Below, one piece after another: positions 29,210-36,114 of a DNA stretch of 58,137 nucleotides. The stretch is from Faecalibacterium longum CLA-AA-H243 (GTDB taxonomy: Bacteria > Bacillota > Clostridia > Oscillospirales > Ruminococcaceae): assembly GCF_020687245.1 (NCBI RefSeq), contig NZ_JAJEQG010000017.1, forward strand, positions 1-58,137, read 5' to 3'. The position numbers and the translations under genes were made by a program. How positions within the stretch are numbered: position 1 is the stretch's first letter; each line of letters starts with the position of its first letter. The notes below the pieces were generated by a model that did no database searches, was not told where the DNA came from, and saw only the letters and a list, made by a program, of their open reading frames with translations.

Positions 29210-32200
29210 TTACTTGTACAGCTCGACCAGGCGGGTCAGATGCTCGTAACGGTCGATTGCGACCTGCTCGTTGCGAGCGAACAGCTGCTTTGCACGCTCC
29301 GGGAATGCACGAGTCAGGCGGCTGTAACGAGTCTCGTTTGCCAGCAGGGCCTGATACTTCTCGGCATCCACAGCCTTGGAGGTCAGGGTGAAGGGGTTCT
29401 TGCCCTGAGCCTTGTTGGCCGGATTGAAGGTGAACAGGTTCCAGTAACCAGCCTCAACTGCCTTCTTCATCTCGTTCTGGCAGTTGGTCATGCCGCCCTT
29501 AACACCGTGCAGCTCGCAGGGAGCGTAGCCGATGATGAGGGAAGGACCGGGATATGCCTCAGCCTCTGCGATAGCCTTGACAGCCTGGTTCATGTTAGCG
29601 CCCAGAGCGATCTGAGCAACATAGATGTAACCGTAGGTCATAGCGATCTCAGACAGGCTCTTCTTGCTGATCTCCTTACCAGCAGCAGCGAACTGGCAGA
29701 CCTCGCCGATGTTGGAGGCCTTGGATGCCTGTCCGCCGGTGTTGGAGTACATCTCAGTATCGAAGACCATGACGTTGACATCCTCGCCGGAAGCCAGGAC
29801 GTGGTCCAGACCGCCGAAGCCGATGTCATATGCCCAGCCGTCACCACCGAAGATCCAGACGGACTTCTTGGCGATGAACTCCTTGCTCTTCAGGATCTCA
29901 GCGGACTCGGCGCAGCCAGCGGCAGCAGCCTTCTCCAGCTCAGCGATCAGAGCCTTAGCGGGGGCATCGTTAGCCTTGGTGTTGTTCTTGGTTGCCATGA
30001 ACTCGTCAAAGGCAGCCTTCAGCTCAGCAGAAGCCTTGTCAGAACCAGCGACCTCAGCGATGCGCTTGATCAGGTTCTCACGGACGGTCTTCTGGCCCAG
30101 ATACAGGCCCAGGCCGTGCTCTGCGTTATCCTCGAACAGGGAGTTGCACCATGCAGGACCGTGGCCGCTGTCCTTGTTGACAGTGTACGGAGAGATGGAA
30201 GCAGTACCGCCCCAGATAGAGGAGCAGCCGGTGGCGTTGGAGATGTACATCTTCTCGCCGAACAGCTGGGTGATCAGACGTGCGTAAGAGGTCTCAGCAC
30301 AGCCTGCGCAGGAGCCAGAGAACTCCAGCAGCGGCTGGTTGAACTGAGAGCCGATGACGGTGTCGTCTGCGAACTTAGAGGGCTTCTTGGAGATGTTGGC
30401 GACGCAGTAGTCGAAGACTGCCTGCTGATCGGCCTGAGACTCCTGAGGAACCATCTGGATAGCCTTGGTGGGGCAGACGGTGACACACTCGCCGCAGCCC
30501 ATGCAGTCCAGAGGAGACACAGCCATAACGAACTTGTACTCGTTAGCGGGCTTGTTGTCGCGGCTCTTGGTCTGTGCGGGAGCTGCTGCCAGCTCGTCAG
30601 CGGTCAGCTGGAAGGGACGGATGGTTGCATGAGAGCACACGAATGCGCACTGGTTGCAGCCAACACACTTGGAAGCATCCCACTCGGGGACGTTCACAGC
30701 GGTGCCGCGCTTCTCGTAAGCGGAAGCACCCTGCTCCCACTCGCCGTTTGCGTTAGCAACGAAAGCAGAGACAGGCAGGCTGTCGCCGTCCATACGAGCG
30801 ATGGGCTCCATGACGTCGCGGATCTGCTTGACCAGCTCGGGACGGCCAGCCAGCTCCTTCGGAGCGGGATCGGCCTCGGGGTTGGACCAGGAAGCGGGGA
30901 CGTCCACCTTGTGGATGGCGTCAACACCGGCATCGATGGCCTTCCAGTTCATCTCAACGACGTCCTGACCCTTCTTGCCGTAGCTCTTCTGAGCTGCCTG
31001 CTTCATGAAGTTGACGGCGTCCTCGATGGGCATAACGTCAGCCAGCTTGAAGAAAGCGGACTGCAGGATGGTATTGGTGCGCTTGCCCATACCGATCTCG
31101 ATAGCCTTATCGATAGCGTTGATGGTGTACAGCTGGATGTTGTTGTCAGCGATGTACTTCTTGGCCTCAGCGTTCAGGTGATGGCCCAGCTCCTCATCGT
31201 TCCACTGGCAGTTGATCATGAACACGCCGCCGGGCTTGACATCCTGGACCATCTTCATGCCCATGTGGATGTAAGCGGGGTTGTGGCAGGCCACGAAGTC
31301 AGCCTGGTTGATGTAGTAGGGGCTGCGGATGGGCTTGTCGCCGAAACGCAGGTGGCTGATGGTCACGCCGCCGGTCTTCTTGGAGTCATACTGGAAGTAT
31401 GCCTGAACATACTTATCAGTGTGGTCGCCGATGATCTTGACGGAGTTCTTGTTAGCACCGACGGTACCGTCGCCGCCCAGACCCCAGAACTTGCACTCCT
31501 TGGTGCCAGCTGCTGCGGTGATGGGAGCGGGCTTGACCTCAGGCAGAGACAGGCCGGTGACATCATCGGTGATGCCGAGGGTGAAGCGCTCCTTCGGCTG
31601 ATCCTTCTCCAGCTCCTTGAACAGAGCGAAGATGGAGGACGGGGGAGTGTCCTTGCTGCCCAGACCGTAACGGCCACCGGTCAGGATGACATCATTCTTG
31701 CCAGCCTCACGCAGGGTAGCTGCGACATCCAGGTACAGGGGCTCGCCCAGAGAGCCGGGCTCCTTGGTGCGGTCCAGAACTGCGACCTTCTTAGCGGTAG
31801 CAGGCAGGACCTTCAGCAGAGCGGAGGACACCCAGGGACGGTACAGGCGGACCTTGATGATACCGACCTTCTCGCCCTTAGCGTTCAGGTAATCGATGAC
31901 CTCGTCAGCAACGTCGCAGACAGAGCCCATAGCGATCATGACGCGATCGGCATCGGGTGCGCCGTAGTAGTTGAACAGGTCGTAGTTGGTGCCCAGCTTC
32001 TCGTTGATCTTGGCCATGTACTTCTCGACGACTGCGGGCAGTGCGTCGTAGACAGAGTTGCAGGCCTCACGATGCTGGAAGAACACGTCGCCGTTCTCGT
32101 GGGAACCGCGCATCTTGGGGTGCTCGGGGTTCAGAGCCTTTGCACGGAACTCCTCGACAGCCTTCATGTTGCACATTTCCTTCAGGTCGGCGTAGTCCCA

Positions 32201-32755
32201 CTTCTCGATCTTCTGGTACTCGTGAGAAGTACGGAAGCCGTCGAAGAAGTTCAGGAAGGGAACCTTGCCCTCGATAGCTGCCAGATGGGCAACAGGGGAC
32301 AGGTCCATGACTTCCTGCACGCTGCTCTCGACCAGCATTGCGAAGCCGGTCTGGCGGCATGCCATAACGTCGCTGTGATCACCGAAGATGTTCAGGGACT
32401 GGGTAGCAACGGTACGTGCAGAAACATCGAACACGCAGGGCAGCTGCTCAGCAGCGATCTTGTACATGTTGGGGATCATCAGCAGCAGGCCCTGAGAAGC
32501 GGTGAAGGTGGTGGTAACAGCACCTGCACCCAGAGAGCCGTGCACAGCGCCTGCAGCGCCTGCCTCAGACTCCATCTCGACGACCTTGACCTGGTTGCCG
32601 AAGATGTTCTTCTGGCCCTGAGCGGACCACTGGTCCACAGAGTCAGCCATCGGAGAAGAGGGGGTAATGGGGTAGATGGCAGCCACGTCCGTGTAGGCAT
32701 ATGCTACATGAGCGGCAGCGGTATTGCCATCCATGGTTTGCTTTGCTCTAGGCAT
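29210..32755 (-). CDS. nifJ: Pyruvate:ferredoxin (flavodoxin) oxidoreductase
   Basis: A 1181-residue single-chain PFOR that converts pyruvate and CoA to acetyl-CoA and CO2 and reduces ferredoxin. Domain order is as expected: an N-terminal pyrimidine-binding domain (AYAYTDVAAIYPITPSSPMA), a gamma-like domain with GLGGDGTVGANKNS, a two-cluster ferredoxin domain (CVGCNQCAFVC and CMGCGECVTVCP), and a C-terminal TPP-binding domain (CAGCAET, ATGCSSIWGG, GDGWAYDIGFGGLDHVL). It is the central carbon enzyme of the window and likely the partner of the ferredoxin at 18 kb. The start at 32755 follows GGAGG. The 5' leader holds three tandem structured units and the 3' side is also highly structured. Confidence 0.97.
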   Translation of the reverse strand: MPRAKQTMDGNTAAAHVAYAYTDVAAIYPITPSSPMADSVDQWSAQGQKNIFGNQVKVVEMESEAGAAGAVHGSLGAGAVTTTFTASQGLLLMIPNMYKIAAEQLPCVFDVSARTVATQSLNIFGDHSDVMACRQTGFAMLVESSVQEVMDLSPVAHLAAIEGKVPFLNFFDGFRTSHEYQKIEKWDYADLKEMCNMKAVEEFRAKALNPEHPKMRGSHENGDVFFQHREACNSVYDALPAVVEKYMAKINEKLGTNYDLFNYYGAPDADRVMIAMGSVCDVADEVIDYLNAKGEKVGIIKVRLYRPWVSSALLKVLPATAKKVAVLDRTKEPGSLGEPLYLDVAATLREAGKNDVILTGGRYGLGSKDTPPSSIFALFKELEKDQPKERFTLGITDDVTGLSLPEVKPAPITAAAGTKECKFWGLGGDGTVGANKNSVKIIGDHTDKYVQAYFQYDSKKTGGVTISHLRFGDKPIRSPYYINQADFVACHNPAYIHMGMKMVQDVKPGGVFMINCQWNDEELGHHLNAEAKKYIADNNIQLYTINAIDKAIEIGMGKRTNTILQSAFFKLADVMPIEDAVNFMKQAAQKSYGKKGQDVVEMNWKAIDAGVDAIHKVDVPASWSNPEADPAPKELAGRPELVKQIRDVMEPIARMDGDSLPVSAFVANANGEWEQGASAYEKRGTAVNVPEWDASKCVGCNQCAFVCSHATIRPFQLTADELAAAPAQTKSRDNKPANEYKFVMAVSPLDCMGCGECVTVCPTKAIQMVPQESQADQQAVFDYCVANISKKPSKFADDTVIGSQFNQPLLEFSGSCAGCAETSYARLITQLFGEKMYISNATGCSSIWGGTASISPYTVNKDSGHGPAWCNSLFEDNAEHGLGLYLGQKTVRENLIKRIAEVAGSDKASAELKAAFDEFMATKNNTKANDAPAKALIAELEKAAAAGCAESAEILKSKEFIAKKSVWIFGGDGWAYDIGFGGLDHVLASGEDVNVMVFDTEMYSNTGGQASKASNIGEVCQFAAAGKEISKKSLSEIAMTYGYIYVAQIALGANMNQAVKAIAEAEAYPGPSLIIGYAPCELHGVKGGMTNCQNEMKKAVEAGYWNLFTFNPANKAQGKNPFTLTSKAVDAEKYQALLANETRYSRLTRAFPERAKQLFARNEQVAIDRYEHLTRLVELYK

Positions 32756-32795
32756 TTTTCTTCCTCCATTCAGAATTTGGTACCTTCTGCGCGGG

Positions 32796-32957
32796 GCAAA
32801 CGTCTTTTTACCGGAGCCGGAGAACTCCTTTGAAAAACGTATTGCTCAACTGATAAGCGCCGCACTTCGCCGGAGCCGGAGAACTCCACAAAAGCACACG
32901 CTCATCGAGGGCAATAGCCCTGCCCGGGGCCGGAGAACCCCATGAAGGCACTATTGC
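32796..32957 (-). promoter_or_regulatory. Triple tandem structured element in the PFOR 5' leader
   Basis: Three units, each with an outer stem around an inner hairpin GGRG-TTCTCCGG-CYCC. Unit 1: 32957-32911 (outer GCAATAG/CTATTGC, inner hairpin GGGG/CCCC at 32941-32926). Unit 2: about 32902-32855 (inner GGAG/CTCC at 32887-32872, weaker outer AGCG/CGCT). Unit 3: 32845-32796 (outer GCAATACGTTTTT with AAAAAGACGTTTGC, inner GGAG/CTCC at 32828-32813). Inner hairpins are spaced 54 and 59 bp apart. All lie within the predicted 205-nt leader. No known riboswitch family is recognised. Confidence 0.65.
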
Positions 32958-32966
32958 TCATCTAAT

Positions 32967-32995
32967 ATAATAGCAAATTCCGCCGGTAAAGGCAA
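32967..32995 (-). promoter_or_regulatory. PFOR promoter
   Basis: TTGCCT (32995-32990), a 17-bp spacer and TATTAT (32972-32967) on the minus strand, placing the start of transcription about 3 bases before structured unit 1. Confidence 0.65.
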
Positions 32996-33142
32996 CGCAA
33001 ACCGACTGTAAAAACACAACAAAAATTCAAGAAATTTTTTAGCGCTTTTTTACAGATGTGTTCTTTGCTGCATCCATGACGGTGTTATGCTCCAAAATCC
33101 AGTATCCATGAGGCTTTTTCTTACAAAATTCTAAATTTATAA

Positions 33143-33172
33143 TTGACATTTGTACAGATTCTGCCGTAAACT
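33143..33172 (+). promoter_or_regulatory. Promoter of the nudF-rluA-gntR operon
   Basis: TTGACA (33143-33148), an 18-bp spacer and TAAACT (33167-33172). The AT-rich stretch 33000-33140 upstream holds nothing else recognisable. Confidence 0.65.
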
Positions 33173-33224
33173 TTATCTATAGTATCATGCGCTGCACAGC
33201 GCAGGGGAGGACAGGCACAAAACG

Positions 33225-33776
33225 ATGGATGCTGCACATTTTGAAAAGACGCTCTCGAGCGAAGTTCTCTTTGAGGGCCGGGTGGTCACGCTGACCAAAG
33301 ACGTGGCTCTGCTGGAAAACGGTGAGACTTCTATCCGGGAAGTGGTCCACCACCACGGCGGGGCCTGCATCGTACCGTATTTTGAGGACGGCACCCTCTG
33401 CATGGTGCGCCAGTTCCGCTACGCCATGCAGCAGGAGCTGTGGGAGCTGCCCGCCGGCAAGCTGGAAAAGGGCGAAGACCCCTTCGAAGCCGCCAAGCGG
33501 GAGCTGGGCGAAGAGTGCGGCCTGACCGCCGACCACTACACCCCGCTGGGCGAGTTCTACCCCACGGTGGGCTATGACACCGAGATCATCTATATGTGGG
33601 TGGCCACCGGCCTGCACACCACCCAGATGCATCTGGACGACGATGAGTTCCTGACGCCCGACCGCATCCCGCTGGCAAAAGCCTACGAGATGGTCATGAG
33701 CGGCGAAATAAAGGACGGCAAGACCATCGCGGGCGTGCTCAAGCTCAAGGCGCTGGTGGACGAGGGCAGGCTGTGA
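33225..33776 (+). CDS. Nudix hydrolase, ADP-ribose pyrophosphatase-like
   Basis: A 183-residue Nudix enzyme with a perfect Nudix box starting at Gly78 (G-x5-E84-x7-R92-E93-L-x-E96-E97-x-G99-L), the Mg2+-binding catalytic helix. The surrounding features PYFEDGTLCMVRQFRYAMQQELWELPAG and the downstream FYPTVGYDTEIIYMWVATGL match the NudF/ADP-ribose pyrophosphatase subfamily, which splits ADP-ribose into AMP and ribose-5-phosphate. The exact substrate is inferred from subfamily. The stop overlaps the GTG of the following pseudouridine synthase gene by 4 bp. Confidence 0.92.
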   Translation: MDAAHFEKTLSSEVLFEGRVVTLTKDVALLENGETSIREVVHHHGGACIVPYFEDGTLCMVRQFRYAMQQELWELPAGKLEKGEDPFEAAKRELGEECGLTADHYTPLGEFYPTVGYDTEIIYMWVATGLHTTQMHLDDDEFLTPDRIPLAKAYEMVMSGEIKDGKTIAGVLKLKALVDEGRL

Positions 33777-35238: not shown

Positions 35239-36114
35239 TTAGTCGTCATCTTCCACCAGTTCGTACTGGCTCAAGATCTTCTCGAAGTTCATGTAGTTTG
35301 CGTCTGCGTAAGTGTCGCATCTGGTGATCTGGCCTTCCATGACAGTCTGGACAGCAGTCTCACCCTGCACTTCGGCAACGCCCTTCACGATCATATACTT
35401 CGGCTTGCTGCCGTTGAAGCAATAAATCATTGCGACCGTCACAGGCACACCATTCTCAGTTTCCGTAAAAGCAATGCAGTCTGCCGGATACTCGGTAGAG
35501 CCGATTTTGTAGTAGCCCTGCATGATCTTGTACTTAGTGAAGTCTTTGATGACCGTGTCGTCGTCATCATCAGGCTTCGTCGGATACTTGCTCCAGTCAG
35601 TGACAGTATAAGTACCCTTAATGCCATCGATATCCCAGCTCTTTTTCTGAGCCTCATCGTGCAGGTTAATCTCATCCCTCCTATATTCCGGAGCAAGCGT
35701 TCTATTGTAACTCTTGTTTCCGTCAGTAGACTGGACAGTCTTCATGCTGACCGTCATGCTGCCCGCCAGCATCTTCACGTTCATCTCAAGAGTATACTTC
35801 TCAGAGTTCATGTTCTTCAGATAGCTGCTCGTGAAAGGAACGACCTTGACATTAGTCATGCCAAGCTGCTCTGCAATGTTTTTATCAGTCGTCGTGCCGG
35901 AAGAGCTGGAAGAACTGGAGCTGCTGCTCGAAGAGCTGGAAGAAGAGCTCGAAGAGCTGCTGGAGCTAGAGCTGGAGCTGCTGGAAGAGCTGCTGCTCGA
36001 GCTGGAAGAATCGCTGCTGGAGCCGCCGCCGCCACCACCGCCGCAGGCGGTGAGCATCGAAACCGTCATAGCCGCAGCCAGTGCGACTGCCATTACCTTT
36101 TTTGCCAATCTCAT
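35239..36114 (-). CDS. Lipoprotein with poly-serine linker
   Basis: A 291-residue predicted lipoprotein of unknown function. A signal peptide ends in the lipobox LTAC (Cys24), so it would be anchored to the outer face of the membrane. Seven Gly and then an almost uninterrupted run of more than 40 Ser (about residues 32-73) form a flexible stalk. The C-terminal domain (about 75-291) has alternating strands (VKVVPFTSSYLKNMNSEKYTLEMN, MKTVQSTDGNKSYNR, GTYTVTDWSKYP) and an acidic end. The Ser codons are mixed AGC/TCC/TCT. The promoter contains a run of eight G between -35 and -10, so expression may be switchable by slippage. Confidence 0.8.
   Translation of the reverse strand: MRLAKKVMAVALAAAMTVSMLTACGGGGGGGSSSDSSSSSSSSSSSSSSSSSSSSSSSSSSSSSSSSSSSSSGTTTDKNIAEQLGMTNVKVVPFTSSYLKNMNSEKYTLEMNVKMLAGSMTVSMKTVQSTDGNKSYNRTLAPEYRRDEINLHDEAQKKSWDIDGIKGTYTVTDWSKYPTKPDDDDDTVIKDFTKYKIMQGYYKIGSTEYPADCIAFTETENGVPVTVAMIYCFNGSKPKYMIVKGVAEVQGETAVQTVMEGQITRCDTYADANYMNFEKILSQYELVEDDD

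Follow-up and report, generated by a model that had tools for sequence, protein, structure and literature searches.

Organization of the PFOR locus

The window, by which we mean the whole stretch of 58,137 nucleotides from Faecalibacterium longum CLA-AA-H243 that was analysed (contig NZ_JAJEQG010000017.1), carries on its minus strand the gene for pyruvate:ferredoxin oxidoreductase (PFOR, nifJ). The product scores 1668.5 bits with TIGR02176 (cut-off 911.35), and PFOR is present in 29 of the 31 genomes of the genus and in 145/157 genomes of the family. The gene, its promoter and its leader are laid out as follows.

29210..32755, minus strand: PFOR/nifJ, an open reading frame of 1181 aa, downstream of the leader
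32990..32995, minus strand: -35 box TTGCCT, from the promoter scan
32967..32972, minus strand: -10 box TATTAT, from the promoter scan
32951..32959, minus strand: segment a, GAGCAAUAG, the conserved 5' start of the transcript; its alternative-fold partner is CUAUUGC
32944..32951, minus strand: segment b, GUGCCUUC, the 5' strand of helix P1
32907..32959, minus strand: unit 1, outer stem GCAAUAG/CUAUUGC; matched by covariance model R1
32926..32941, minus strand: hairpin core 1, GGGG-UUCUCCGG-CCCC
32908..32921, minus strand: mini-hairpin AGGGC-UAUU-GCCCU, in the P1 fold only
32907..32910, minus strand: CCUC, alternative-fold partner of GAGG in the ribosome-binding site
32852..32906, minus strand: unit 2, outer stem GAUGAGCG/CGCUUAUC
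32872..32887, minus strand: hairpin core 2, GGAG-UUCUCCGG-CUCC
32793..32847, minus strand: unit 3; matched by covariance model R1
32813..32828, minus strand: hairpin core 3, GGAG-UUCUCCGG-CUCC
32780..32787, minus strand: segment b', GAAGGUAC, the 3' strand of P1, 12 nt ahead of the ribosome-binding site
32760..32767, minus strand: ribosome-binding site GGAGGAAG

The promoter TTGCCT-17-TATTAT given in a preliminary description of this DNA was recovered by the scan. Transcription is predicted to start near 32960, and unit 1 lies, as had been proposed, within about 3 nt of this inferred start. In relatives with a single hairpin unit, the place of the -35 box is mostly taken by TTTACT. It is noted that in 55/62 PFOR leaders of the family (L035-L062, L091-L130) the best promoter is TTTACA or TTTACT with a 17-base spacer, not TTGACA, under a scoring that itself favoured TTTACA. 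A simple consensus scan of 32700-33300 found no intrinsic terminator in the leader; the sole terminator-like site of that region, 32980-32995, overlaps the -35 box and the spacer. Compared with 200 shuffled sequences, the window leader as a whole folds better than 199, in agreement with the earlier proposal of a structured RNA ahead of PFOR. Beyond that proposal, the leader contains the long-range helix P1, the mini-hairpin at 32908-32921, which corresponds to the second hairpin in one-unit leaders, and an element reaching the ribosome-binding site near 32760. Elsewhere in the window, a frame of 292 positions including the stop (35239-36114, minus strand) encodes a lipoprotein-like signal sequence followed by a run of 37 serines.

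Hairpin units and their covariation

The three GGRG-UUCUCCGG-CYCC hairpins described previously, at spacings of 54 and 59, are present with 0 mismatches to the pattern in all three core 16-mers, and the 2.96 Mb genome contains no other exact copy. Two further sites have one mismatch and 23 have two, giving 28 matches in all vs 6 for a reversed control pattern. For AGCAATAGTGCCTT, a single site with 0 mismatches was found in the genome, and there the control outnumbers the pattern by 21 hits to 6. The loop is invariant across the compared units and leaders, and the core pairing is intact in 72/72 cells (12 distinct units and leaders). The covariation claimed for the R-Y pair is borne out by G-C/A-U changes on both sides in 4 cells, all of one pair. 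This covariation score is equalled by 1/500 shuffles, a single two-sided pair being found in 436/500, and the rows behind the count are related sequences.

Taken alone, units 1 and 3 have z-scores of -1.45 and -1.87, with 12/200 shuffles as good in each case, and unit 2 has the strongest z-score of the three, -3.99, with 1/200. Outer stems are present in all three units, including unit 2, whose stem the preliminary description had not called strong.

One of only two sites outside the leader that come within one mismatch of the core lies in the PFOR coding sequence itself, at 30311-30326 (minus strand), where the codons of the LEFSGSC motif read GGAGTTCTCTGGCTCC, one base off the leader core and with the same hairpin fold. 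The exact 16-mer is found at this coding site in five relatives of the genus and, outside it, in L040, L053 and L055. Across the genus, 11/31 genomes contain the exact 16-mer pattern, 6 in leaders and 5 within the PFOR coding region, and the idea of a wider regulon sharing the element was rejected. The coding copy can be explained by protein conservation and codon choice, and its likeness to the leader core may be chance. A scan of the named genome collection with the leader pattern gave 8 matches, seven of them in Faecalibacterium and one in a Treponema MAG, which was read as chance after inspection of its surroundings.

Change in unit 2 between the window and its closest relative

Unit 1 is identical between the window and its closest relative, G002, and 15/56 bases of unit 2 differ in an ungapped comparison, with the loop untouched. 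In the PFOR gene, 87/3546 bases differ between the two, 75 of them at third positions (75/1182). Change within one leader is very uneven, as seen in unit 2 (32852-32906 against L022/L063) next to the identical unit 1. Among the pairs of unit 2 touched by substitutions, 9/11 are retained in the window fold and 10/11 when viewed from G002, with two changed on both sides in either view, and the energies are similar (-29.4 for the window and -30.2 for G002). When the same substitutions were placed randomly outside the loop, an energy as low as that of G002 was reached in 20/2000 trials. This ungapped comparison replaced an earlier count on the window and G002 with gaps allowed, which had given 56 pairs unchanged, 5 changed on one side, 0 on both, 4 broken and 3 gapped. 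From these sequences, the stem of unit 2 seems to have changed fast under pressure for pairing, with its loop fixed.

Distribution among relatives

PFOR leaders could be read in 25 Faecalibacterium genomes; four further PFOR matches were cut or partial. Three hairpins occur in two of the 25, the window and G002, and one hairpin, GGGGUUCUCCGGYCCC, in twelve (6 distinct sequences). The GGRG-CYCC hairpin was to be sought upstream of PFOR in relatives, and it is present in 14/25 leaders including that of the window and absent in 11/25. The latter carry other hairpins, four (L034, L076, L081, L082) besides seven of a separate type; in L082, UUCUCCGG is present but lies in a different hairpin, and the core is absent. 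The separate type (L077-L080, L087, L088, L090) consists of two GC-rich hairpins and a constant tail, AAUAAAAAGUAAUGGAGG. RNAalifold predicts 29 pairs for six of these seven (L090 left out); 5 of the pairs have changes on both sides and several are broken in some rows.

Retention of tandem modules among the relatives was not found, three units being confined to 2/25 leaders of the genus. The tandem arrangement, taken earlier as the essence of the element, does not hold that place, and no function shared by the genus can depend on three cooperating modules, because so few leaders have them. The three hairpins in tandem seem to be a recent addition to the leader RNA and not its core.

The 12 one-unit leaders, several of which are identical (6 distinct), are conserved from the transcript start to the ATG at 0.97-1.0 in bins of 15 columns, with one bin at 0.81 that spans the end of the first hairpin and the start of the second. 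Promoter bins reach 0.87-0.94 and pre-promoter bins 0.37-0.89.

Covariance model R1 was built from six one-unit leaders with the inner pairing of RNAalifold rather than the favoured hairpin pairing, and it acts mainly through sequence. With 150 candidates scored per genome of the genus, matches below E 0.1 were PFOR leaders only, and units 1 and 3 of the window both matched. Its weaker hits include the PFOR leader of G026 and two further sites, G025 C22 and G001 C15. All seven leaders of the second type are missed at E 0.1. At the same threshold, R1 matched only the window's own genome among 157 family genomes and had no match in the 155 of them outside the genus (under strict filters, with 29 candidates per genome); the absence of the one-hairpin leader outside the genus is weakly shown by this search. 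Five other genera (L035 and L036; L037 and L112; L040; L045 and L046; L050) have PFOR leaders whose 5' start resembles AAGCAAUAGYGCC, differing from it by about three changes at most, so the transcript start may predate the hairpins.

The PFOR leaders of the rest of the family were folded as well. Of 70 leaders, 62 were used; two genus leaders were left out, L035, L036, L111, L113 and L116 had no promoter match and L107 had no ribosome-binding site. Their mean z is -2.1, with 49/62 below -1, and in all but one the pairing begins 0-10 nt from the assumed start. Control leaders, taken from other genes of the same loci, gave a mean z of -2.0 (n=36), or about -1.95 (n=31) in a figure computed by hand after removal of five leaked PFOR leaders, some near-duplicates remaining. 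The idea that PFOR leaders are specially structured across the family was rejected on this comparison (-2.0 for control genes vs -2.1), and we make no claim of PFOR-specific structuredness since the leaders of other genes are about equally folded.

A predicted long-range helix around the hairpins

Helix P1 is formed by GUGCCUUC (32944-32951) and GAAGGUAC (32780-32787) and encloses all three units. It was found in 18/25 Faecalibacterium PFOR leaders, which comprise 12 distinct sequences and six repeats; a clear P1 was not seen in the other 7/25. All 96/96 pair cells (8 pairs in 12 distinct sequences) are standard, a count that is descriptive and no blind test, the strands having been chosen by eye before the pairs were counted. 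Four of the eight pairs vary and two are changed on both sides, one from G-C to A-U in a single leader, the other from U-A to C-G in both leaders of the tandem type. The span of P1 ranges over 56-172 nt, with its 5' segment beginning at +11 to +13. Between b' and the ribosome-binding site there are 12-15 nt in 10/12 sequences, and 28 and 47 nt in the others.

Unaided, RNAfold picks P1 in the one-unit leaders and in L034, L076, L081 and L082. It does not select P1 in the two tandem leaders, where the partition-function probability is 0.2. In the one-hairpin leaders RNAalifold keeps P1 and chooses a different inner pairing, with no two-sided changes.

Two computed folds

The 5' strand of P1 can instead pair inside a long hairpin. 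We computed this arrangement as fold I, with segment a forced onto its partner a' and b paired within the long hairpin, and forced P1 as fold II. The two tandem leaders and 6/6 one-hairpin types can adopt either fold. The computed energies favour fold II by 4.2-5.6 kcal/mol in the six one-hairpin types and fold I by 0.9-1.0 kcal/mol in the tandem pair; in L076, P1 is ahead by 10.9 kcal/mol. In nascent RNA ending before b', a pairs a' in 4/6 one-hairpin types and in both tandem leaders, fold I not being favoured in the nascent RNAs of L065, L069 and L076. The probability that the ribosome-binding site is unpaired is 0.20 in fold I vs 0.61 in fold II for the window, and 0.52-0.58 vs 0.68-0.73 for the one-hairpin leaders. 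By computation, the effect of the fold on the ribosome-binding site is clear only in the tandem form. Fold II leaves about 12 nt of the 5' end unpaired. An H-type pseudoknot, with a/a' present together with P1, is topologically allowed.

Comparison with known leader RNAs

As in the preliminary description, which had recognized no riboswitch family, none was identified in the window leader or in eight relative loci. Across the window only a tRNA at 1830-1903 reaches its Rfam 15 gathering score. At E up to 10, the region 32700-33240 gives six matches, all under their cut-offs, the best being Esr41 with 22.2 vs 102 bits, and the eight relative loci give no match.

A leader-peptide attenuator was judged unlikely, there being no shared AUG frame; the AUG of the window at position 3 is ACG or ACA in 10/12 one-unit leaders. 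Most of nine leaders listed share some frames starting with GUG (position 13) or UUG (LPRAKGTKF), because the RNA strands are conserved; in G002 the UUG frame has shifted, and in L076 it has no stop. An anti-Shine-Dalgarno role of the loop was rejected as unsupported. CUCC is complementary to GGAG, yet the best such duplex does not exceed chance; shuffles equal it at fractions of 0.135-0.245 for the six one-unit types, 0.6-0.625 for the two three-unit leaders and 0.06-0.88 for all 28 leaders examined. The absence of the hairpin in 11/25 leaders also counters this mechanism.

Riboswitch and attenuator leaders have two mutually exclusive folds that act on translation. The PFOR leader resembles them in that its 5' strand has two partners and the computed accessibility of the ribosome-binding site depends on the fold. 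It differs in having no known aptamer or ligand and no terminator seen in the leader, and in being tied to one gene in one genus. Stem-loops at the 5' end of the ompA and aprE type stabilize abundant mRNAs. The PFOR mRNA, expected to be abundant, is likewise folded near its 5' end, with a stem whose distance from that end differs by fold; unlike those stem-loops, it has an invariant loop and a conserved long-range helix.

Among the papers listed in literature searches, no PFOR leader RNA came up. In PMC8040213, PMC11109978, PMC8632094 and PMC6429828, the words ferredoxin, nifJ and Faecalibacterium do not occur where they were looked for (ferredoxin and Faecalibacterium only in the case of PMC8040213). 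A comparable setting is that of the aceE-II motif, a riboswitch candidate upstream of pyruvate dehydrogenase in Thioalkalivibrio (PMC11109978). As presented there, it too is a conserved leader restricted to one genus and found exclusively before an enzyme that turns pyruvate into acetyl-CoA; the organism and the enzyme are different, and the likeness noted here is one of setting. Tandem arrangements of TPP and thiS riboswitches are described in PMC6429828 and share with the PFOR leader the presence of multiple structured modules. The PFOR leader differs in its variable copy number (one in 12 and three in 2 of 25 leaders) and in that no separate expression platform is seen for each module.

A proposed role of the leader RNA

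The PFOR leader RNA is real and conserved, it is seen at a single gene, for the most part within one genus, and it is not in Rfam. Both P1 and the hairpin covary, and two folds can be computed. It is probably regulatory, and it looks like a new regulatory RNA of narrow distribution. The reading that we favour, at roughly an even chance, is that of a cis-acting structured RNA working as a two-fold switch on translation or on mRNA life, with the loop as a putative recognition site. The 5' strand AGCAAUAG-UGCCUU would choose between the folds. In fold I it would pair with the sequence just ahead to make one long hairpin, which is mostly the computed nascent fold. In fold II its second half would pair with GAAGGUAC near the ribosome-binding site, releasing two smaller hairpins and exposing that site more than fold I does. 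The hairpin with the invariant UUCUCCGG loop would be the likely site for a protein, RNA or ligand that biases the choice, and the choice would set the translation or lifetime of PFOR mRNA. From conservation and computed folding we infer that the leader switches, that the loop hairpin is bound and that expression is affected. In the window genome and one sister, the hairpin unit may have been multiplied to give three sites, with folds near equal in energy.

The main rival, possible but clearly less probable, is a constitutively structured 5' end that protects an abundant mRNA or insulates the ribosome-binding site without switching or sensing, its interior hairpins being free to vary. Their variation in number and sequence across the genus fits this explanation, as do the family PFOR leaders, folded beyond shuffles (mean z -2.1) and paired near the start. 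The leaders of other genes are about as folded, however, so that nothing PFOR-specific follows, and the invariant loop and the sequence conservation of both P1 strands are left unexplained. The roughly 12 nt unpaired at the 5' end in fold II also speak against protection of this kind.

A bolder version of the favoured two-fold switch is doubtful. It would be confined to Faecalibacterium and respond to a metabolic or redox signal through the UUCUCCGG hairpin, the step from one to three copies having retuned it from a P1-biased to a balanced state, with the near-copy in the coding sequence maybe serving as a second binding site.

A metabolite riboswitch with cooperative tandem aptamers, close to what was first proposed, is improbable. 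Conserved sequence, two computed folds and tandem copies agree with it, and the aceE-II candidate (PMC11109978) precedes another enzyme that converts pyruvate to acetyl-CoA. Against it, triple copies occur in only 2/25 leaders; all R1 matches below E 0.1 in the genus, with 150 candidates per genome, are PFOR leaders; no R1 match was found in the 155 genomes outside it under strict filters; and an 8-nt loop on a short stem was judged small for an aptamer. Nothing found points to a ligand, and the cooperative sensing suggested earlier is speculation.

Finally, a DNA operator, with a transcription factor binding the conserved sequences and the RNA structure incidental, would suit the position at the transcription start and the conserved primary sequence, but it is most improbable, as the G-U pairs of P1 and the hairpin are not palindromic in DNA and the compensating changes maintain RNA pairing.

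PFOR is a central enzyme, converting pyruvate to acetyl-CoA, and Faecalibacterium is among the commonest bacteria of the human gut. Close relatives carry natural one-hairpin, three-hairpin and other versions of the leader, so that a direct test of RNA control of PFOR is possible.
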